Virus record (IMG/VR): IMGVR_UViG_3300042480_000654
Span: 1 to 55,551 of that record
DNA from: a virus
Reading direction: 5' to 3' (one strand)
DNA: 55,551 nt
Part shown: positions 3,762 to 40,205 of the stretch, one piece after another
Layout: every line of letters starts with the position of its first letter
How positions within the stretch are numbered: position 1 is the first letter of the stretch
Notes under the pieces: model-generated
The model's input: the letters and a program-made list of their open reading frames with translations, nothing else
What the model was told of the DNA's origin: nothing
Database searches by the model: none
Position numbers and translations under genes: made by a program

Positions 3762-3808
3762 TTGTTGATTCCCCAAGTTGAAAGCGGCAATCCTTCGACC
3801 AGAAGGCT

Positions 3809-6800
3809 ATGCCGCAATATCAACTGGTTGACAACGAGACGGGCCGCGAACTTCTGGTAGAATCGGATTCCCCGCCAACGGAGGCGGAGGTTTCCAAGCT
3901 ATTCCAGAACCACGACGCCTTCAAGGTGGCCATTGCCGGCCCCAAAGGCTCGGAGGAACGCCGCCGGGTAATGGCGCGGGAGGTGGCTGACCAATCCCGC
4001 CAAACCTTCACCGAGGAATCGGGTGGATCAACTGCCGGCCCCCTGCTGAGCGGAACAGCATCGCTCGGCCAAAGCCTTTCCGCTGCTGGCACAAAGATTC
4101 TCGGTGGCGCAGCTTCCGGATTCGAGATGCTGAAGGAGGGCCTTGGTGCACCCGAGGGTGGATTTTCGCTTCCGGAGCCGGGCAAGCTACCAAGAACTCC
4201 AGCCGAAGTTGAGCAGGACATTCAGGCAAATCAGGTTCGCCAGCAGGCCAGAGAGCTTCAGGCCCAAGCTGAGGCGACTTACCCGGTAAACCCGAAATAT
4301 CCTTGGGCAAATCTTCCCGGTCAGGTTGTTGGGTCGGTGGCGCAAATGCTGGCGACTGGTCCTGCCAGAATCCCAGCCTACGCCCTGAGCGCATTGGAGG
4401 GTGGTATGGAGCAGGCCCGTGAGTCTGGAGCAACACCGGCCCAGGTCCAAGCCCAAGGACTCGTAGAGGCTGCTACTGGCGCCGTCAGCGAGAAGCTGCT
4501 GGGCCTTGCCCCATTCCTGAAGGATGCGGGGAAGATGACGGCCCGCCAATTTGCCCGTCAGGCCCTCACCCCCACTGCGGGGAAGGTTGCCCTTCAGGAA
4601 GCCATCCAAGAGCCCACTGAGGGCATCCTGAACCGATTGTCGTCCAAGTATGTGACGGGCGCGAATCCAGATGAGGCTGTGTGGGACCCGCAAACCCTCG
4701 CCATGGAAGCGGTTGGGGGTGGGTTAGGTGGTGCGGGCCTGTCAATCCCCACCCTCGCCGGGGCAAAGATTCAGCGGCAGCGGGATGTAATGGGGCGCCG
4801 GGAACTTGGATTGGCTGGCCGTTCCGAGCAGCAGCTCCAAGCTGAGCTGGAAGCGTTCAACCAAGGAATCCAGCAATCCCAACTGACCGGAGGTGGTGTG
4901 GAGCTTGTGCAACAGACGGGTGATCCTTACCGGAACCAGCTCAACCTGTCCGCCCAGAACGCCCCGCCGCAGTTTCAGATGGTAACGTCTCCGCGGACTG
5001 CCCGGGGATTGCTCAGAAGCGAAACCGACTCAGGGCTTGGAGACTTTGCGCCCCCGGATGGTCGCACCCCCATCGACCAGTTCATTGGCCGGACCCGCCA
5101 AGCTGCCGTCCCCAGTGCTGAGGATCGCCGGGCTGCCCTTGAGGCTGGCCTGACTCTCCCGCAGGATACTGGCAAGTTCGCTTCGGACGAGCCCCAAGTG
5201 GCTATCCCTCCCCGCTACGCCCAAGCCCCGCAGCTTGCCTCCCTCGGCACTACGCCCCGGACGGCAATGACCACCTCCCCGATTGATGAGGCCATCATGG
5301 GCGGACGGTTGCAGCGGTCTACTCTTCCCCCAATCAACCCGCAGCTCCAGCAGCTTCAGGACTTGGCGGAATCCGAGCTGAACGCGATTGAGCGGTTCCC
5401 GAACCGGGACACCAACCGCCGGGATTCCCTGCTTGGGGCAGCCCCGCAGGTGGTCCAGATGCTGGACACCCGAATCAACAACTCCATCGGCAAGGTGAGT
5501 GACGCGGAGGTTGGGCGGTTGATGGATTTGCGGGAACGGCTGGCCAAGTTCTACAACGACCAGACGGCCTACAATGAGCTGACGGCTGAGGCGATTGGGG
5601 TTGCCCGCGATACCCGCCGTCCGGCTCCGCAGATGGCGGCTGGTCTTTCCCAACTGGAACAATCCCGGCAAGCCCAGTTCCCTGCCGGCGGTGCGGCTGT
5701 CCAGCCTGAGCAGCCACAATCCATCCAACCCCAAGGCGACTTGATGGCTCGCCTCCGCGAGGCTCGCCAGATGGACGTTCTCCGCCAACCCTCCCCGATG
5801 AGCGCGGCCCAACTGGGGACTGGCCAGCCGGTGGGTGGGCCTCCCGCAGTGGCGGACCTGACCCCGTTCCTCCAGTTCTATGAGGCGCAGGCGTCTGCCC
5901 CGCAGGCTCCTGTTCAGGCAGCACCAGAAGCTCCCGTAACCCAATCCGCCCCCGTCCGTCGTGGGGTGCGGATGCGGGCCAAGACTTCCCGTTCAATCGG
6001 GATGAGTAGAAAGCCCTCGCAAACCATCACCGGCTCCAATGTGCAAACGGGCACTGAAATGCCGGTGCTCCCCACGGGAGGCGAGGCGCCCATTTCCCGC
6101 ACGGAATCGAAGCCAAGGCAGATGAGTGATGAGGAGCTTGCCGCCATGAAGGTGGCAAAGCTGAAGGGCGCCGAGCATCGTGGTGATGGAATCACGTTCG
6201 TTCCGGAAAAGTTGATGACTCCGGAGCGGCGTAAGGCAATGAAGCGCGGTGGCTCACTGATTGAGGTCAAGCCAATGGCTGATGTCACCGGCGTTCAAAC
6301 CGACCGAGGATACGCCATCTTGGACAGGCGGTCACGGATTGCATTCAGGGGCAATGAGCCGGTTCAAGCCGAAGCTGTTGACGCCTATGGAATAAAGCCC
6401 CCCAAAGGCTACGTTCGCCAAGGTGAACTCTACGTTTACCAACCCATTTCCCGCAGCGAACCTGCGGCGGCCCAAGGAGTCGCTACCGAGGGGGTCGGGG
6501 TTTCCTCATCCGAGGAGACCCCGGCTTTCGGGGTTCGTCGCTACGGGGATGCGCTGTTCATCTCCATCGCCGAATACAACCGGCTCCGCCCGCAGATTGA
6601 TGAGCGGCTGGCTGCCGGGGATGAGGTAGCCAAGCGGATTGACGACATCGAGGTGAACGCGGAGCAATACGTCCGCTCCTCGGCGGGCTTCGGAGCCCTG
6701 ACTCCCGAAGGGCAGGAGCAGGCCGTCGGGAACTTCAAGACCAAGCTCTACCAGTCGGCCGCCAAGTGGCTGGCTGGTGGGGAGTTCCAGTTCTCCCCTC

Positions 6801-9800
6801 CCGTCATCGCCAAGTCCGTCGCCATGGACATCGGCAAGAGCGTGGCTGAGAAAGACCGCAAGCGCACCCAGTCGGGTGAAACTTCCGAGGAAGATGGGGA
6901 GGAGGTTCGCGGGGACTTTGAGTCCCTCAGTGAACGGGTGATGCCCAAGCAACCCCTGAAGGCGCCTCCTGCCATCAGGAAGGCCGACCAGGACATTGTG
7001 TTGGTAGTTGCGAATGTTCGCCGACAATTCGGACTAAACGAGGCCCAGATGGCAAGAATCATGGGTGCATACGTTGACCCGGAGATGGAGGCCAATCTGG
7101 ACGACGAGGAGCTGGGTGTCCTTGAGCGGGTGCGGCCGATGCTGGCCCGGCTGGAGAATGTGAGGTATTCGGTTGCAGGTGGAATCCAGTTGACCGAGCA
7201 AGGCCCGTTCTACTCCCAGCTCACCCGCACAATTCAGGGGATGGGGCAGGAGACGATGACGGTGGGGCAGGCTCGCAGCGCCATTGAGAAGGGGGCCAAG
7301 AAGGACGAGGTTGCGATGAGCGGTATTTTCACCGACCCGCTGAGCCCTCTCTACGGGAAGCAGCCCGGGGATAAGGTGACCAAATCCGAGCTGATTGGCT
7401 ACGCGCTGGAGCGGCAGGCAAAGGTGGAGGATGTGGTGTTGGGTGAGCCCCGTGGGAAAAACCTATCCGGCACATATCAAGACCGAAAAACAGGGGAGTG
7501 GGTTGTTTCACAAAATGGACGCGAGGAGAGGTTTTCTTCACTCAATGAAGCGGCCCGGCGTGGTGATGAGTTGAACCGGATTGCTGATCAGTCCAGGGAG
7601 ACCAGCTTCTCCTCCTACCAACTCCCCGGCGCGGACGAGGGGAGCTACCGGGAGATGTTTGTGACGTGGCCTTACACCGGGAAAAGCCTGCGGGTGGATT
7701 TAACGCCCGACAACAAGTGGGGTGTTTTTAGTGGAAAAACATTGCTGGAGAAATACACGGACAAAATCTACGCGGAGCACGCGCTCAAGCATCGTCTAAA
7801 TTGGCGGGACGGCCATTCGCAATACGCTTCCATCGCGAACCCCATCGTCCGCATCCGCCGCAACATCCGCACGGACGCGAACGGGAAGAAGACCTACTTC
7901 ATCGAGGAGATTCAGGGGCCTCAGAAGGCCAACCAAGAGAAGATGCCGCCAGAGCTTCGCAAGCGCATCTACGAGATCGGAATGAAGCGGGCCATCCGGG
8001 ATGCCGTGGACAGCGGTGCGGACGCGATTGCTTGGACGACTGGGCAGCAGCAGGCTGACCGGTATGATTTGAGCAAGCAGGTTCTCCACGTCGCGTGGGA
8101 GAAGAACGACGACGGGACCTACAACATCAACGCCCCTCAGCCCGACGGGAGCCCGGGGGTTTACAAGGAAGACCTGTCGCTGGATCAGGTTGAGGAGCTG
8201 GTCGGGAAGGACCTCGCCAAGAAGATTGAGTCCGGGGAAGGCCGGCAGCAGGAAAAGGACGGCGGCTACCGTAGCTGGAAGATTCTGGAGGGAGTGGACC
8301 TGATTGGTGGAGATGGCCTCAGGCGCCTCTACGACCAGACCCTCCCCTCCATCGCGAATGATCTCGCCAAGAAGTTTGGGGTGAGGGTTGGGATGGGGGA
8401 GATTGCGACGGCTGCTAAATATCAATTCTCGCCACGAGCCGCCCGCGATGGAACAGGGAAGCCAATCCTGTTGAACGGCGTGCAGGCGTATGTTTTGCAG
8501 GACATCGCTTCCGGCGATTATCTCGCAGACAGGAACCAAAACACCTTCGCGCGAAGACCGCAGGATGGTCAGTTATTCTCAAAGGGTGAAGCTGACTCCA
8601 TTGCGGACAAGAAGACTTCTGACTTTAAGGCCAACGTCCACTCCCTGGCAATCCCCGAAGCCATGAAGGCTGCGGCGAAGACTGGCCTGCCGCTGTTCTC
8701 CCTCTCCTCCCTCATCCGCGAGCCCATCGGCCTTGCCCGTGCCCAGCAAGCGGTCGCCCGGTGGAAGCAGGAGAATGGGGTGGAGGGAGCCCTCATCGAG
8801 GTGGTGGATGATCCCGAGCTGATGACCCCCGACGGGCGGCCGGTCGCGGCGATGGTGAGGACAATCCCCGGGCAACCCCCGGTAATCACCGTCAACGCGG
8901 CCCAGATTTCCTCGGAGCAGGAGCTGATCGAGAAGCTGTGGCATGAGGCCCTCCATCCGGTCTGGGAAGATCAGGGAGTCCAGCGGGCTTGGCAGGAGGT
9001 CCTCCAGACCCTTCCCCGTAACGCCATCCAAGCTGAGCTGGCCCGTGGGTATAGCCCCCTTGAGGCCACGATGGAGGCGGCCATCAACTCCGCGGCTACG
9101 CAGGCTGCGAATACGCCCCTGCGGACGGCTTGGAAGAAGTTCCTTGATGCGGTGTGGGAGGCGATGGGGCGGGTATTTGGGTTCACCACGAAGCCCAAGG
9201 ATTTCGAGAAGCTGATGGAGGAGGCGCTGCGGTCGCTGAGCCGGCCGTATAATCAGGAAGGAGAATTGCGCTACTCCGTGGCCAACACCATCGCCATGGT
9301 CAGCTCCGCCAAGGCGACCAAGGCAACCCTGGAAACCTCAGGCGACCCACAGGCTGTGGCGATGATGGGACAGGCAGCCGCCTCCCTGATCAACCCGGCG
9401 TTCAGCGACCTGATGAACCGGCTGAGCGTAGCGGAACCGGGCACCGCGGACGCCACCACCTACACCTTCCTGAAGGCAGCGGACAATATGGCTGCGTCCG
9501 GGGCTGCGGTGGTGGAGTGGGCGCAATCCCATCAGGACCCAATCCCTGCGTTCACGAACCTGAGCGACCTCCCTACGGGCTGGCGGTCCGTGGTGGGGAA
9601 TGTGGTGATGGGCGCCCACCTTCAACTGGGCCAGCAGATGGGGTCCATTGACCGGGCGATTGAGCGGGAATCCGCCAAGCTGGTGGAGGCTGCCGCGGAC
9701 CTTGAGGATGCGAGCAAGGAGCGGCTGTCTGCTGAGGCGGCTGAGACTCAGGCGCTGGACCTACTGGACGGCCTGATGCGGACGATTGTGGTTGAGCGCA

Positions 9801-12800
9801 AGAAGATTGGCACCTCGTCGGCCACACTCAGCCGTCAACAGGCAGAGGACCAAGCCAAGGCAATCTTTGGCATCAAGCGCAACAAGCTGTCGGCCCTGAC
9901 CATTGCCATCCAGACGATGGCGCGGGAGATGCCGGTGGAAGGGTTCGTCAACAACGAGGCTGCCCTCGCTTGGTTCGATGAGCGTCAGAGCAAGAACCCA
10001 ATCCTAGGGGACAGCGCGGCGGATGTGGTGAAGGCTTTCCGGGAGGCCCTGTCCCGTCAGGCCGACCTCACCAAGCGCATCGAGCAAGTCCGGGCCTTCA
10101 CGCTGGACAGTGTGGATGCGGTGCGGGAGGTGGGGGAGATTGCCAAGCTGATCGGCAAGAACAAGAAGGCCACCATCAACAACTACGCCAAGCTCCGCAG
10201 CGAATACGAGGCTGGGTTCCGTCGGTTCAAGCTGGCATCCAAGAAAGCCACCGACGCCTCTACGCGCCTTGACGGGCTGCTGGCGGCCAAGGAAGCCCTG
10301 AGTGGGCTGATGGCCTCACCTGAGTATCTGGAGAAGACCAATGACGCCTTCCTGCGCGGCCGGGGCAGCCTCAGCGGGTTGATGAGCGAGGTGAAGAGTG
10401 ATGGGCGGCCGACCGGGGTGGTGGAGGTCTATGGTCCCTCTGCCTACGTGGCGGCCGGAAACCGGGTGGCCAAGGACAAGGACCTCGCGGCTCTCCGTCG
10501 CAACTCCACAATTGAGACGTGGGGGAAGAAGGGGAAGGAGAAGTCCGGCACCATCTACGAGATCGACTACCGACCTGACTTCGCCATCGAGGCCAAGAAT
10601 GTGGAGGCCATCGACCGGTTGTCCCAAGAAATCACGCAGGCCCTGAACGACGAGTCCTCCCCGTTCTACCTGACGGACCCGTTGGCTAGGTCGTCCTACA
10701 CCCAACTGGGAGCCTACCTTGCCCAGTTTGTGGCGACCAACCGCTACCTCATCGAGCAGCAGTTGTCGGACACGATGCTGCTGACCGTCCTGAAGGGCGG
10801 ACGAATCTTCTCCGGTAAGGCGGGAATCCTGAGTGCGTTCGGGGGCGCCCTCTACACCACCCGAATGAATGCTGCCCGTGCGATTGGTGGGCGGGGTGGG
10901 ATGGAATGGGAGAAGGCCAACCGGGCATCCGACCTCTTCGAGAAGAAGGCCGGCAACGTCCTCAAGGCGACCCGGGTTGAGAACGCAGTGGCCCGACGTA
11001 AGGCCATCGAATCCCACGGGCTGAACCCGGACAGCCGGGAAGGGATTGCCCAGTGGTCGGCCCATATCTCCTCCGTAATTGGCTCCTTCCAGAACCCGTC
11101 GCAGGACCGCCTAAAGGAAGGTGACTATGTGGGCGGGATGGTGGTGACAAAGGAGGACCTCAAGTCCGCCGAGATTCAGAAGAAGTTCTCCACCGGGGTA
11201 GTGGGCGACTTCTCGTCCATGACGGCTGACCTGAGCGAGGTGGTGAATCCCGAGGAGAAGTTTGGCAGCGGGGATTCCGCCGTCCTGTTCACCCGTGCGG
11301 CCGAGGATTACGGGCTGAAGACCCGCCGCCAGTTCTCCCAATGGGGCCGGCAGTTCAAGGAAGACTGGGCCACCGCATCCGAGAAGGACCTCGAAGCCTT
11401 CCGGCTTAATCAGGCTCAGTCGACCGGGGATGAACCGGTGCCAATGGTCTGGACTGAGCGCGAGAAGCTGGCCGACCGGGAGATCGAGGGGCCGGTGTAT
11501 TCCCACCTGACGGAGACGAACCAAGAATACTCCAGCAAGGCGCCCGCTTCCATCCGCCCGGCTTATGCGCGGCTCCGTAGCGCCATCAAGGCTGGCCGTG
11601 GACCCAAGACCGTCGAAGGTATCGGCGAAGCCATCTCCCAGCTCACGTCGGACGCGGAAGGCAATGCGACCATCGACCCCATCACGGCCAAGGAAGCCTT
11701 GCTTGGAGCGATTGATTTGGACGTGAATGCAATTGGCAAGGCCATCGGGGAATGGCACCAGTCCACCCTCGGAAACTCCGACCTTCCCGATGTCCTCATC
11801 GGCGTCAAGGCGGCCAACGGGGCACTCGCCCTAGCCCGTGGAAAGATGGTGGCCCCGACGTGGTTCTATGACTACGGCCTCCACGACGACATGGAGCGGG
11901 CGGTGTTTGTGGCGCAAGGCAAGCGCATCCTGCTGATGAAGGTCTACGAGACGATGGGGACCTTCAAGGAAGCGGTCCGCCGGAACCTTGATGAGGCCAA
12001 TCGGGAGATCGAGGAGAACGCCAAGAAGCGGAAGGCGAACGGGGATGTGGTTGGCTACGACGCAGCCGAGGCTGAATACGACAAGAAGTCCAAGGCCAAA
12101 TACCGGGACGGCGGGGAGTTTGCCACCCGGAAGGGACTCCAGCGTTCCTTCGACACGCTCGAAGCCCTCCAGTCCGAGCTGAAGTCGGTCCTTCAGGTGG
12201 CCAATGAGGCAGCGGTGGACCAGCTCAAGGCAAGGACGATTGGTTCGCTGGCTAGGCTCCAAATCTCCGTGCTGCTGTCCAGCGTATCGTCCATCCTGAA
12301 CAACATGACCGCGGTGGTTGCTGACCCATGGCGAACCTGGTCCCAGAGCGAGAGGTTCTTCCTGAAGGTTGGCAAGACCACCAAGGCGGTGAAGAACGCC
12401 TTCAAGTTCATGGCCAGCGACATGGTGGCAAGGCTCCCTGCATCAATCCGCAACAAGCTCACCAAGAAGCGGAAGATGGTGCTGATCTCAACCGTTAGCG
12501 ACTTCCTGAGAACCATGATGGCGGAGCGGGACATGATGGAGCAGACCGGCCAGTTCGAGGAATTCGAGTCCATCAAGGACAAGGTTGCCGCCATCCGGGC
12601 CAACCCCCTGTCGTTCGGCCAGTCCACCACCATGGAATCCTCCAAGTTCGAGCGGGCCATGAGCTGGCTGTATAGCAAGGCCATCTACGGGGTGGCTGTG
12701 GCTGAATGGGTGCGGGACCGGGCTCCCGGATACTTCGACAAGGTTATCAACCGGGTGCTGGCCGAGGATGCCAAGGAGTTCGAGCTGTGGCTGTCCCCCC

Positions 12801-14125
12801 ATCTGTGGAACTGGGCTCGTAACCAGCCCGGAGCAACCGTTGAAGAGAAGATCGAGAATGCCCGCAAGTCAGTCATCCGCGGCAGCGATCTTGGAATCAG
12901 TGACGAGAACATAGCCTCCATCCGCGACTTCATGAGTGCGGCTGGATCGCTGGAGTCGATGGCAATCCGGCTGCTGTCTGACAACGGGGACAAGAAGATG
13001 ACCACGAAGAAGTCCTCCCTGAGCGATGGCGAGCTTCAGTCCGTCCAGTATGATGCTGGCCGGAAATACAACGTCCGCGCTTCCTCAACCTCCCCCGACG
13101 TGATGAAGGGTGGGCCGGGCATCAAGGGCACGTTCAAGAATATCCTCCACACCTTCCTGAGCTGGACTTTCCACCGCATGGGGACGGACGCCAACCAGTT
13201 CTTCAAGAAGCGCGGCGGCGGATGGAAGAAGGAGGTAACGGCTGCATGGGGAGTCGCGATGCTGGTCTTGGCCACATTGCTCCTTGGCGCCATGGTAAAG
13301 ATTCCGAAGGACATCTGGCGCTGGGTCACAGGCGATCCCGCCACGACCCCCAATATCCTCCAGGCTGTGGACAGCCCTGAGATGGCCATGCGCTACATGG
13401 CGGCATCAACCGCCCCGGTATTCCCGATTGGTGGTCAGGTCATCGCCGAGATGATGGGCGGGTCTGGTATCTCCAGCCCGCTGGACAACAACGTGCTGGA
13501 CAACAACCCCCCAGCCCAGTTCCTCGCCTCCATGGTCCAGACGGGCCAACGCATCTACCAGACGGGCGACCTCAAGTATCCGCTGGTGGACTTTGCCCGG
13601 AAGAACTTCTGGCCCGCCGGACTGGTCCTGAACCGGGTAATGGAAGGGGATACCGAAGCCCGGGCTGCCAAGCGGGCTGTCCGGATGGCGGCTGCGGGGA
13701 TGGAGGTCAGGCCGTCCGGAAGTGGAATTGGTTCCCGGGAAACTCCCATCACCCCCATCACCCGGAACGCCATCGCAGCCCTCTACGAGGGGGACACCGG
13801 GGCCTTCAATACGGCCAGGGAGAAGGCGATTGCCCACTACGTGGGTCAGGGGAAGACGCCCAAGGAGGCGGCCAAGCGGTTTGATTCCTCGGTGAGTGGG
13901 CGGGACCCGCTGCGATCTGTCCTTGGCCGGAATCCCACCGAGGAGGAGGAAGCTACTATCCTCCGCCGGCTCAACCCCAGCCAGCGCCGGGCAGTCGGGA
14001 AGTCCCGGTCGCTGTTCCGCAAGCCCAAGAAGATCAGGTTGGGTAGGAGCAAGTCGCGGAAGGTCCGCCTTGGCAGGAAGCGGCCCGCTCGGCGTTCCTT
14101 GCGATTGCGGCGAGCTGCCTCTTAG
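3809..14125 (+). CDS. Giant polyvalent internal virion protein (3438 aa) with zincin-like motif
   Basis: This single 10.3-kb frame takes up nearly a fifth of the window. Residues 1-330 are helical with Gly/Ala-rich segments typical of ejected phage proteins. About residues 1270-1630 carry a domain common in phage polyvalent proteins: an FIEEIQG block near 1366, AWTTGQQQADRYDLSKQV near 1407, GLRRLYDQTLPS, and an ending VHSLAIPEAM...PLFSL. A metallopeptidase-type HEALH (HExxH) lies at 1712-1716. The next 1300 residues are long helices. A likely membrane helix (VAMLVLATLLLGAMV) lies near 3145-3165, and the last 30 residues are strongly basic. Such proteins are packaged and delivered with the DNA. 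Domain functions other than the zincin motif are unknown. Its 3' end overlaps a minus-strand gene by 92 bases. Confidence 0.9.
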   Translation: MPQYQLVDNETGRELLVESDSPPTEAEVSKLFQNHDAFKVAIAGPKGSEERRRVMAREVADQSRQTFTEESGGSTAGPLLSGTASLGQSLSAAGTKILGGAASGFEMLKEGLGAPEGGFSLPEPGKLPRTPAEVEQDIQANQVRQQARELQAQAEATYPVNPKYPWANLPGQVVGSVAQMLATGPARIPAYALSALEGGMEQARESGATPAQVQAQGLVEAATGAVSEKLLGLAPFLKDAGKMTARQFARQALTPTAGKVALQEAIQEPTEGILNRLSSKYVTGANPDEAVWDPQTLAMEAVGGGLGGAGLSIPTLAGAKIQRQRDVMGRRELGLAGRSEQQLQAELEAFNQGIQQSQLTGGGVELVQQTGDPYRNQLNLSAQNAPPQFQMVTSPRTARGLLRSETDSGLGDFAPPDGRTPIDQFIGRTRQAAVPSAEDRRAALEAGLTLPQDTGKFASDEPQVAIPPRYAQAPQLASLGTTPRTAMTTSPIDEAIMGGRLQRSTLPPINPQLQQLQDLAESELNAIERFPNRDTNRRDSLLGAAPQVVQMLDTRINNSIGKVSDAEVGRLMDLRERLAKFYNDQTAYNELTAEAIGVARDTRRPAPQMAAGLSQLEQSRQAQFPAGGAAVQPEQPQSIQPQGDLMARLREARQMDVLRQPSPMSAAQLGTGQPVGGPPAVADLTPFLQFYEAQASAPQAPVQAAPEAPVTQSAPVRRGVRMRAKTSRSIGMSRKPSQTITGSNVQTGTEMPVLPTGGEAPISRTESKPRQMSDEELAAMKVAKLKGAEHRGDGITFVPEKLMTPERRKAMKRGGSLIEVKPMADVTGVQTDRGYAILDRRSRIAFRGNEPVQAEAVDAYGIKPPKGYVRQGELYVYQPISRSEPAAAQGVATEGVGVSSSEETPAFGVRRYGDALFISIAEYNRLRPQIDERLAAGDEVAKRIDDIEVNAEQYVRSSAGFGALTPEGQEQAVGNFKTKLYQSAAKWLAGGEFQFSPPVIAKSVAMDIGKSVAEKDRKRTQSGETSEEDGEEVRGDFESLSERVMPKQPLKAPPAIRKADQDIVLVVANVRRQFGLNEAQMARIMGAYVDPEMEANLDDEELGVLERVRPMLARLENVRYSVAGGIQLTEQGPFYSQLTRTIQGMGQETMTVGQARSAIEKGAKKDEVAMSGIFTDPLSPLYGKQPGDKVTKSELIGYALERQAKVEDVVLGEPRGKNLSGTYQDRKTGEWVVSQNGREERFSSLNEAARRGDELNRIADQSRETSFSSYQLPGADEGSYREMFVTWPYTGKSLRVDLTPDNKWGVFSGKTLLEKYTDKIYAEHALKHRLNWRDGHSQYASIANPIVRIRRNIRTDANGKKTYFIEEIQGPQKANQEKMPPELRKRIYEIGMKRAIRDAVDSGADAIAWTTGQQQADRYDLSKQVLHVAWEKNDDGTYNINAPQPDGSPGVYKEDLSLDQVEELVGKDLAKKIESGEGRQQEKDGGYRSWKILEGVDLIGGDGLRRLYDQTLPSIANDLAKKFGVRVGMGEIATAAKYQFSPRAARDGTGKPILLNGVQAYVLQDIASGDYLADRNQNTFARRPQDGQLFSKGEADSIADKKTSDFKANVHSLAIPEAMKAAAKTGLPLFSLSSLIREPIGLARAQQAVARWKQENGVEGALIEVVDDPELMTPDGRPVAAMVRTIPGQPPVITVNAAQISSEQELIEKLWHEALHPVWEDQGVQRAWQEVLQTLPRNAIQAELARGYSPLEATMEAAINSAATQAANTPLRTAWKKFLDAVWEAMGRVFGFTTKPKDFEKLMEEALRSLSRPYNQEGELRYSVANTIAMVSSAKATKATLETSGDPQAVAMMGQAAASLINPAFSDLMNRLSVAEPGTADATTYTFLKAADNMAASGAAVVEWAQSHQDPIPAFTNLSDLPTGWRSVVGNVVMGAHLQLGQQMGSIDRAIERESAKLVEAAADLEDASKERLSAEAAETQALDLLDGLMRTIVVERKKIGTSSATLSRQQAEDQAKAIFGIKRNKLSALTIAIQTMAREMPVEGFVNNEAALAWFDERQSKNPILGDSAADVVKAFREALSRQADLTKRIEQVRAFTLDSVDAVREVGEIAKLIGKNKKATINNYAKLRSEYEAGFRRFKLASKKATDASTRLDGLLAAKEALSGLMASPEYLEKTNDAFLRGRGSLSGLMSEVKSDGRPTGVVEVYGPSAYVAAGNRVAKDKDLAALRRNSTIETWGKKGKEKSGTIYEIDYRPDFAIEAKNVEAIDRLSQEITQALNDESSPFYLTDPLARSSYTQLGAYLAQFVATNRYLIEQQLSDTMLLTVLKGGRIFSGKAGILSAFGGALYTTRMNAARAIGGRGGMEWEKANRASDLFEKKAGNVLKATRVENAVARRKAIESHGLNPDSREGIAQWSAHISSVIGSFQNPSQDRLKEGDYVGGMVVTKEDLKSAEIQKKFSTGVVGDFSSMTADLSEVVNPEEKFGSGDSAVLFTRAAEDYGLKTRRQFSQWGRQFKEDWATASEKDLEAFRLNQAQSTGDEPVPMVWTEREKLADREIEGPVYSHLTETNQEYSSKAPASIRPAYARLRSAIKAGRGPKTVEGIGEAISQLTSDAEGNATIDPITAKEALLGAIDLDVNAIGKAIGEWHQSTLGNSDLPDVLIGVKAANGALALARGKMVAPTWFYDYGLHDDMERAVFVAQGKRILLMKVYETMGTFKEAVRRNLDEANREIEENAKKRKANGDVVGYDAAEAEYDKKSKAKYRDGGEFATRKGLQRSFDTLEALQSELKSVLQVANEAAVDQLKARTIGSLARLQISVLLSSVSSILNNMTAVVADPWRTWSQSERFFLKVGKTTKAVKNAFKFMASDMVARLPASIRNKLTKKRKMVLISTVSDFLRTMMAERDMMEQTGQFEEFESIKDKVAAIRANPLSFGQSTTMESSKFERAMSWLYSKAIYGVAVAEWVRDRAPGYFDKVINRVLAEDAKEFELWLSPHLWNWARNQPGATVEEKIENARKSVIRGSDLGISDENIASIRDFMSAAGSLESMAIRLLSDNGDKKMTTKKSSLSDGELQSVQYDAGRKYNVRASSTSPDVMKGGPGIKGTFKNILHTFLSWTFHRMGTDANQFFKKRGGGWKKEVTAAWGVAMLVLATLLLGAMVKIPKDIWRWVTGDPATTPNILQAVDSPEMAMRYMAASTAPVFPIGGQVIAEMMGGSGISSPLDNNVLDNNPPAQFLASMVQTGQRIYQTGDLKYPLVDFARKNFWPAGLVLNRVMEGDTEARAAKRAVRMAAAGMEVRPSGSGIGSRETPITPITRNAIAALYEGDTGAFNTAREKAIAHYVGQGKTPKEAAKRFDSSVSGRDPLRSVLGRNPTEEEEATILRRLNPSQRRAVGKSRSLFRKPKKIRLGRSKSRKVRLGRKRPARRSLRLRRAAS

Positions 14126-38911: not shown

Positions 38912-39429
38912 GCGAAGATTCCCCCGACTACAAGGTTTCCACCTACGACTCCCTGAAGGCCCGCATCCGCGACTGGCAACTGGCGATGGGACAGCCTCTG
39001 CAAGACCCGAAGTTCCCCACCCAGCAGTTCCAATACGTCCGCGAGGAGTGGGATGAGCTGCTGGAGGCCCAGCTCTACGGGACGCTCAAGGACGAGGTGG
39101 ACGCCATCGGCGACATCGCCTTCACGCTGGTCGGCCTTGAGAACGCTGGCGGGCCTTCCCATGTGAACAAGGCGTGGTTCACGCTGGAGCTGATCTGCGG
39201 CCAGCGGGGATTCAGCCTTGCCCAAATCCTTGAGCGCATCTGCGACTCCAACGAGACGAAGTTCTGGTCCGAGGAGGATGCGCTGAAAACGTATCCGGGC
39301 GGGGTTGACAGCGGTGGCGGCCACATCGTTGACAAGGTGAACGGGCGTTGGGTTGTCCGGGGCGCCTACACGAACAAGGTCGTCAAGCCGCCCACCTACA
39401 AGGCCCCCGACTTCACGGGGATCATCTGA
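38908..39429 (+). CDS. MazG-like NTP pyrophosphohydrolase
   Basis: A 173-residue protein from the ATG of an ATGA overlap. VREEWDELLEAQLYGTLKDE and then VDAIGDIAFTLVGL give the ExxE-xn-ExxD metal-binding pattern of the MazG and dUTPase-like all-alpha family. ERICDSNETKFWSEEDALKT is also typical of the phage subfamily. Such enzymes hydrolyse nucleotide triphosphates and may alter host ppGpp or nucleotide pools. Its stop overlaps the next start as TGATG. Confidence 0.75.
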   Translation: MSEDSPDYKVSTYDSLKARIRDWQLAMGQPLQDPKFPTQQFQYVREEWDELLEAQLYGTLKDEVDAIGDIAFTLVGLENAGGPSHVNKAWFTLELICGQRGFSLAQILERICDSNETKFWSEEDALKTYPGGVDSGGGHIVDKVNGRWVVRGAYTNKVVKPPTYKAPDFTGII

Positions 39430-39749
39430 TGGCAATCAACCAGAACCCCAAATGCCTCGCCCGCAAGCCCCGTCCGCGCATCCCGTCGATCAGCAAGGCC
39501 CGCCATGCTCGTCTTCGCGAATACGCTACGCTGCGGAAGCAGTTCTTGCACGCCAGACCGCGCTGCGAAAGGTGCAAGAAGAAATCGACCGACATCCACC
39601 ACAAGCGCGGCCGGGTTGGCCGCCTGCTCTGCATGAGTGAGCACTGGGCATCCGTATGCCGCTCCTGTCATAATTGGATCGGCGAGAATCCCAAGGAAGC
39701 CCGGGAGCTGGGGCTGCTGTGTGAGTTGGGGAAATGGAATACGCCGTGA
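39429..39749 (+). CDS. HNH-fold protein (recombination-type)
   Basis: A 106-residue protein. LHARPRCERCKKKSTDIHHK carries a CxxC and an IHH catalytic-type pair, and VCRSCHNWIGENP a second CxxCH. It is basic at the N-terminus. The layout is that of small phage HNH or NinG-like nucleases. It sits between MazG and RusA, so a recombination or packaging role is plausible. Confidence 0.7.
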   Translation: MAINQNPKCLARKPRPRIPSISKARHARLREYATLRKQFLHARPRCERCKKKSTDIHHKRGRVGRLLCMSEHWASVCRSCHNWIGENPKEARELGLLCELGKWNTP

Positions 39750-39776
39750 GCATAACCAGTAAGTGGTTCAAGGATT

Positions 39777-40132
39777 ATGAGCGAAGACAACGTGGAGAGC
39801 CTACTCCCAAAAAACCTGATGCAGGTGGGAGACAAGATGGCCATCACGGTGAAGTATGTGGTCCCGTCCCTGAATGCGTTGTTCGCGATGAACCACTGGC
39901 AAAGGGCAAAGGCAAGAAAGCTGACGGCCGCCGCTTTCGCGTCAGCGTTGTCTCCCGAAGGAGTCGCCTTCTTGACCCCGACAATCTCTGTGGAAAGGGC
40001 CTCGTTGATTGTCTCCGCTATGCGGGAGCAATTGAGCAGGACGATCCAGGATCGGTCGAGTATCGCATTAGCCAGGAAAAAGTTGCGAAAGGCGCGGAAG
40101 AAACCGTAGTTACGGTCGAGCGAATTGAATAA
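39777..40132 (+). CDS. rusA: RusA-like Holliday-junction resolvase split by a -1 frame change
   Basis: Two frames together give one RusA-like protein. From the ATG at 39777 the first frame reads to VPSLNALFAMNHWQRAKARK (about 39910), the substrate-side N-terminus of the family. The -1 frame then continues to FRVSVVSRRSRLLDPDNL and LRYAGAIEQDDPG, ending at 40132, and contains the metal-binding DPDN and QDD residues. Codon bias switches frame at the same point, at GGCAAGAAAGC. Either this is a frameshift mutation or sequence error, or a programmed slip. If functional, it resolves recombination junctions. Confidence 0.7.
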
Positions 40133-40148: not shown

Positions 40149-40205
40149 GTGAAGGGCACCAAGAAAGGTGGTAAGAAGGGTGGCAAGAAGGGCTGCGGCT
40201 ACTGA
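40149..40205 (+). CDS. 18-residue Lys/Gly peptide
   Basis: A GTG-initiated frame encodes VKGTKKGGKKGGKKGCGY. An AAAGGAGGTGAT sequence, the full complement of the 16S rRNA 3' end, ends 6 bases before the GTG. A closer ATG would give only two codons before a stop. The repeated KKGG unit suggests a nucleic-acid-binding peptide. Its 3' end overlaps the convergent 425-residue gene. Confidence 0.5.
   Translation: MKGTKKGGKKGGKKGCGY

Follow-up and report, generated by a model that had tools for sequence, protein, structure and literature searches.

In the window (the whole stretch of DNA analysed, 55,551 nucleotides, positions 1 to 55,551 of the IMG/VR virus record IMGVR_UViG_3300042480_000654), a RusA-like resolvase is encoded in two overlapping reading frames, here called A and B. 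Both frames have RusA homology, the offset between them is conserved among relatives, both are under selection, and both are kept open. The sequence argues with good confidence that these are two overlapping genes, each of which probably specifies one piece of a divided RusA-like resolvase.

Gene A is wholly nested in gene B in another frame, and both frames are open on either side of the junction (Table 1); neither feature was noted in the preliminary description. The sequence of frame A includes VPSLNALFAMNHWQRAKARK, and that of frame B includes RLLDPDNLCGKGLVDCLRYAGAIEQDD and LLDPDNLCGKGLVDCLRYAGAIEQDD. Gene B encodes, in order, an N-terminal helix (SITSKWFKDYERR), a linker, and RusA from strand 2 to the C-terminus. 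Gene A contains RusA strand 1 and helix 1; its selected part ends at ca. 39956–39962, and the rest is a K/R-rich tail that is shortened in the relatives L028, L094 and L145. The TGA stop of the HNH gene and the GTG start of B overlap as GTGA. A DnaB-like helicase gene and the HNH gene adjoin the pair, a neighbourhood that would fit a function in replication or recombination. The window was found to contain no second RusA.

Table 1. Positions of the two RusA-like genes and associated features in the window
Feature	Position	Strand	Description
HNH endonuclease-like gene	39429..39749	+	directly upstream of B; phrog_740, 7.1e-7
Gene B	39746..40132	+	128 aa from GTG 39746; ATG 39734 also in frame
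Gene A start region	39770..39779	+	AAGGA TT ATG; weak Shine-Dalgarno-like match, short spacing
Gene A	39777..40109	+	ATG 39777, stop 40107–40109; 110 aa; codons at positions divisible by 3
Junction of the preliminary description, GGCAAGAAAGC	39911..39921	+	frame A reading is A AGA AAG
Dual-coding core	39921..39956	+	frame A: LTAAAFASALSP, end of helix 1; frame B: ADGRRFRVSVVS, strand 2
Gene B stop	40130–40132	+	frame one base back from A

Two other reading frames in the window were recorded. At 40149–40205 (+), there is a tiny frame behind a strong Shine-Dalgarno sequence (AAAGGAGGTGATT), with the product V-KGTKKGGKKGGKKGCGY; a similar Lys/Gly-rich peptide is found at the matching place in relative L002. 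A very long open frame, of ca. 3447 codons, occupies 3782–14125 (+).

A RusA-like identity in two frames offset by −1 had been proposed from the sequence of the window, and it is upheld: both frames can be read, and B matches phrog_34 (RusA) in the window, at 6.6e-5, and in 27 of 32 relatives, with a best value of 6.9e-9. With Pfam, RusA was absent from the window proteins and was found among the relatives in one B only, and when solved structures were searched with a sequence profile, the matches were due to chance only. Alignment with hhalign to a reference profile of 12 annotated or clear single-chain RusA proteins placed A on RusA residues 1–45 (P 1.9e-6), covering strand 1 and helix 1; B fell on residues 49–120 (P 5.8e-8), from strand 2 onward to the end. 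These stretches adjoin in the protein, but their coding DNA overlaps by ca. 45 nt (ca. 39914–39959).

The predicted structures agree with this division. The AF2 model of B (pLDDT 82) has an N-terminal helix followed by a RusA core from strand 2, and it resembles solved RusA only from strand 2 onward. Its nearest RusA is 1q8r_B, with a Foldseek probability of 0.97 and an rmsd of 2.4 over 69 columns, though the E-value of 0.28 is weak. In the AF2 model of A, a helix at residues 40–58 spans the junction at K48. The invariant residues of B are D77, D79, K84, D88, D99 and Q110 (D77, D79, K84, D88 and D99 across 31 loci). The catalytic residues of E. coli RusA are D70, D72, K76 and D91, and every invariant residue expected of the putative active site is in B.

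Relatives of the pair were not easily found. Phage tblastn searches with A alone or B alone gave no matches, nor did a genome-contig search with the joined window sequence; the family was reached with a joined query built from a relative. The resulting set contains ca. 300 IMG/VR loci, many of them the same contigs fetched repeatedly, two metagenome-assembled bacterial contigs (Verrucomicrobiaceae and SAR324), and the GenBank methanogen virus vir555. A second contig, L001, is identical to the window over 3 kb, and L002, with ca. 90% protein identity to the window, has the same layout. In vir555, the one annotated relative that has this layout, only frame A is listed as a CDS, annotated as 'hypothetical'.

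The −1 offset is conserved without exception in this set. Both parts were present in 311 of the 312 loci tested, representing 100 distinct C-part sequences, and the C-part was in the −1 frame of the N-part in all 311. None had both parts in one frame; the remaining locus, in Caulobacter phage S2B, encodes an ordinary single-chain RusA. A search with B only, which is not biased towards loci with A, still gave no exception. The frame break itself is conserved among the homologues, and the same offset across 100 distinct viral sequences is not explained by sequencing error, nor, in most of them, by a plausible ribosomal slip.

Side observations were made downstream of the pair in some relatives. 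In L066 and L067 (ca. 2100–3057 of L066), the region downstream of a divergent split RusA contains a GIY-YIG endonuclease-like frame. This frame is joined to the end of a further RusA B gene (RKAAKGEEEHTQITITYP), which looks like the insertion of a mobile element into the gene. A small conserved gene (M/V-RAELIEAYW...LRQYIQMGTT) is found downstream of B in L028, L080, L093, L102 and L278. In some loci the reading continues into it from B, and in L102 from A; its frame with respect to the pair is therefore not constant. The C-terminal extension in L102 had been considered as jumping from B to A, but it is better described as a small gene in its own right, starting at an ATG or GTG.

Selection on the shared bases was measured by randomising the synonymous codons of B with the B protein held fixed, and scoring conservation in frame A over the next 12 codons. 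Past the junction, frame A had a z of 19.9 over 32 loci, against 7.8 for the control frame, and a z of 9.3 against 2.0 in the 14 strict loci; the control-frame values of 2–8 indicate that shared ancestry inflates z, so it is the contrast with the control that counts. Conservation in frame A peaks at the F (z 12), A (z 10) and L (z 10) of the helix pattern Q..AFxSAL and fades after ca. codon 20, the helix being kept for ca. 12 codons beyond the proposed slip point.

The distribution of substitutions is consistent with this result. There are no substitutions between the window and L002 in the 36-nt dual-coding core. In clade 2, the A1/B2 positions of the core are unchanged and the other two positions have similarly low rates; upstream of the junction, A3 has 2.88 substitutions per site vs 0.8–1.2, and since the upstream substitutions track frame A, B is weakly constrained there. 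Within one clade, substitutions follow the pattern of frame A before the junction, are low everywhere from +24 to +59, and follow the pattern of frame B afterwards. This is the pattern of a dual-coding segment, not of a point switch.

The two frames are also open for longer than expected. Frame B is open upstream of the junction in all 32 representatives (12.2 expected), and frame A is open downstream to +189 in 28 of the 32 (3.3 expected). The third frame is open upstream in none of the 32. Taken together with the conservation past the junction, these counts point to selection on both frames in a shared segment, and the earlier claim of coding selection on both parts is borne out. The accompanying claim, that codon bias changes frame at the junction, is only partly correct: codon usage does move from A to B, but gradually, with no switch at 39910. 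Frame A is favoured at ca. 39770–39845, the two are about equal at ca. 39860–40010, and B is clearly favoured only from ca. 40025.

In-frame starts are present for both A and B in nearly all loci. Shine-Dalgarno sequences are weak at most of these starts; at A, a match of at least 5 nt was found in 8 of 33 representatives, and in some lineages the sequence is strong (AGGAGG in vir555). Because it is strong in some relatives and weak in many, separate initiation is suggested by the starts rather than established. The N-terminal peptides of B are conserved in many lineages, including FPNAS.S.IAAN, MKEIPAGYVEV and ITSKWF..YERR, and the type found in the window recurs in the B proteins of other lineages. 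One locus differs: in L152, at the end of a SAR324 metagenome contig, stops in frame B extend to within 37 nt of the NxW motif, leaving no obvious B start, and a peptide resembling the usual B N-terminus ends at its own stop upstream. This locus, the weak upstream constraint on B and a possible fusion in the clades with A AAA AAG limit confidence in the split-gene reading.

Other explanations of the pair were weighed; the probabilities given to the split-gene reading and to the first three alternatives overlap and do not divide up a whole. One alternative is that B alone is a working resolvase, an N-terminally rebuilt RusA, with A a separate small protein of RusA N-terminal origin, for example one that regulates or inhibits. 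The location of all the invariant catalytic residues in B would fit, as would the differences in the N-terminal peptide between lineages. However, B is without strand 1 and helix 1 of the fold, and A is never missing in the 311 loci, which makes this reading unlikely.

A programmed −1 slip near the Lys-Lys codons, joining A and B into one RusA chain with unshifted A as a by-product, was initially attractive, since A AAA AAG was found at the junction of the first relatives. The exact −1 position of B relative to A at every locus also speaks for it. Slippery sequences were counted within 14 codons after the conserved NxW motif in 75 distinct loci. A canonical heptamer was present in 31 of these, 30 of them A AAA AAG, which is found in clades 1 and 2 and was first noticed in L005–L011; an AGG lies shortly upstream of it in some clade 2 loci. 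The other 44 loci have no canonical heptamer, among them the window, L021, L028, L047, L071 and L136. Downstream RNA structure gives no help to the slip either: eight stretches at or after the junction, folded without pseudoknots, were no better than shuffles (z of 0.23 in the window, −0.9 to 1.4 elsewhere).

The arrangement of the pieces is a further difficulty. Because they abut in the protein and overlap in the DNA, a single −1 slip would cost the protein part of its fold, at the end of helix 1 or else at the start of strand 2. In the joined chain, the second half of helix 1 would be missing, precisely the part that is conserved past the junction. Nor does a slip need frame B open upstream or frame A open downstream, yet both are kept. 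Three results led to the slip being dropped as a general mechanism, namely the heptamer count, the conservation of frame A beyond the junction and the open-frame test, and it is now considered quite unlikely; for the window, as for most relatives, it is unsupported. The preliminary description had linked the fate of the slip to homologues being all in one frame. The opposite was found, and the slip is weakened instead by the missing heptamers, the conservation of frame A past the slip point, and the separate starts in most loci. A double shift, from the B peptide to A and back to B, was rejected, since starts are present for both genes in most loci.

In the two clades that have A AAA AAG, a slip could still operate in addition. 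There, separate chains made everywhere would be accompanied by a slipped fusion, as in the two-product system of dnaX. The heptamer in 30 of the 75 distinct loci is compatible with this, and conservation of A past the junction is what would be expected of a functional unshifted product. However, the run of A may arise simply because both frames code for Lys-Lys there, and the layout is unchanged in loci with variant heptamers (A AAG AAA in L048 and L062 of clade 2, G AAA AAG in L055). A combination of separate chains and fusion is thus judged very improbable.

A recent inactivating frameshift or an assembly indel, the other possibilities raised in the preliminary description, has nothing in its favour except the frame break itself and can be set aside with near certainty, since the same break is found in 100 distinct sequences, many only 30–40% identical, with codon-level selection in both frames and an identical second contig.

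The split-gene reading suggests the following model. B would have a start of its own, with translation coupled to that of the HNH gene upstream, giving a helical N-terminal peptide, a linker and a catalytic core made of strand 2, the D-x-D-N...K motif, and the last helix and strands. A would be translated from its own start and would supply strand 1 and helix 1. The two chains may associate non-covalently into a complete RusA-like fold. The assembled enzyme probably dimerises as RusA does, and its substrates may be branched intermediates of recombination or replication, which it would cut. That the genes are initiated separately, that the chains associate and that the product is a nuclease are all inferred. 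It is reasonably likely that interlocked genes have split one domain into two chains that are obligate partners, with 36 bases serving both the end of helix 1 and the start of strand 2, and that the overlap, kept across many phage lineages and a methanogen-assigned virus, locks the subunits together genetically.

Several known systems resemble parts of this arrangement. B shares the catalytic motif of RusA and its fold from strand 2 (E. coli DLP12 RusA, PDB 1q8r and 2h8c; PF05866; phrog_34 and phrog_1682), and A matches the N-terminal strand and helix. Known RusA is one chain in one frame, whereas here the domain is divided over two overlapping frames in every relative found. In lambda Rz/Rz1, one gene is nested in another in a different frame and the products act together. 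This nested two-frame phage gene pair is like A in B, but Rz and Rz1 are separate proteins, while A and B would be two pieces of one ancestral single domain. The A AAA AAG heptamer of −1 frameshifting in dnaX and IS3-type elements is also found at the junction in some A/B clades. Unlike in those systems, most A/B loci have no heptamer, no stimulator was found, frame A continues beyond the site both open and conserved, and a separate start for frame B is present in most loci.

Conserved reading-frame transitions in prokaryotes, including gene fission and overlapping pairs, have been collected by gene comparison (Antonov et al. 2013, PMC3711429); the text of that paper has no mention of RusA, Holliday or resolvase. 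The PRFect paper (PMC10274946) has 'RusA/RuvC' in its listing of genes known to shift, and among its references 34–41, the one on a resolvase (39) only identifies ruvC. Among the open-licence literature, no paper on a RusA frameshift or overlap was found. The enzyme family is known; its division into two interlocked frames is not described in the open-licence papers found.

If the split-gene reading is true, a widespread branch of a well-known resolvase family has been missed or half-annotated by current gene callers, and some viral genomes that seemingly have no resolvase may encode a split RusA. It would also show how one domain can be divided between two chains with no additional DNA, one half being overprinted on the other, and the family would be a clean test case for telling overlapping genes from programmed frameshifts.
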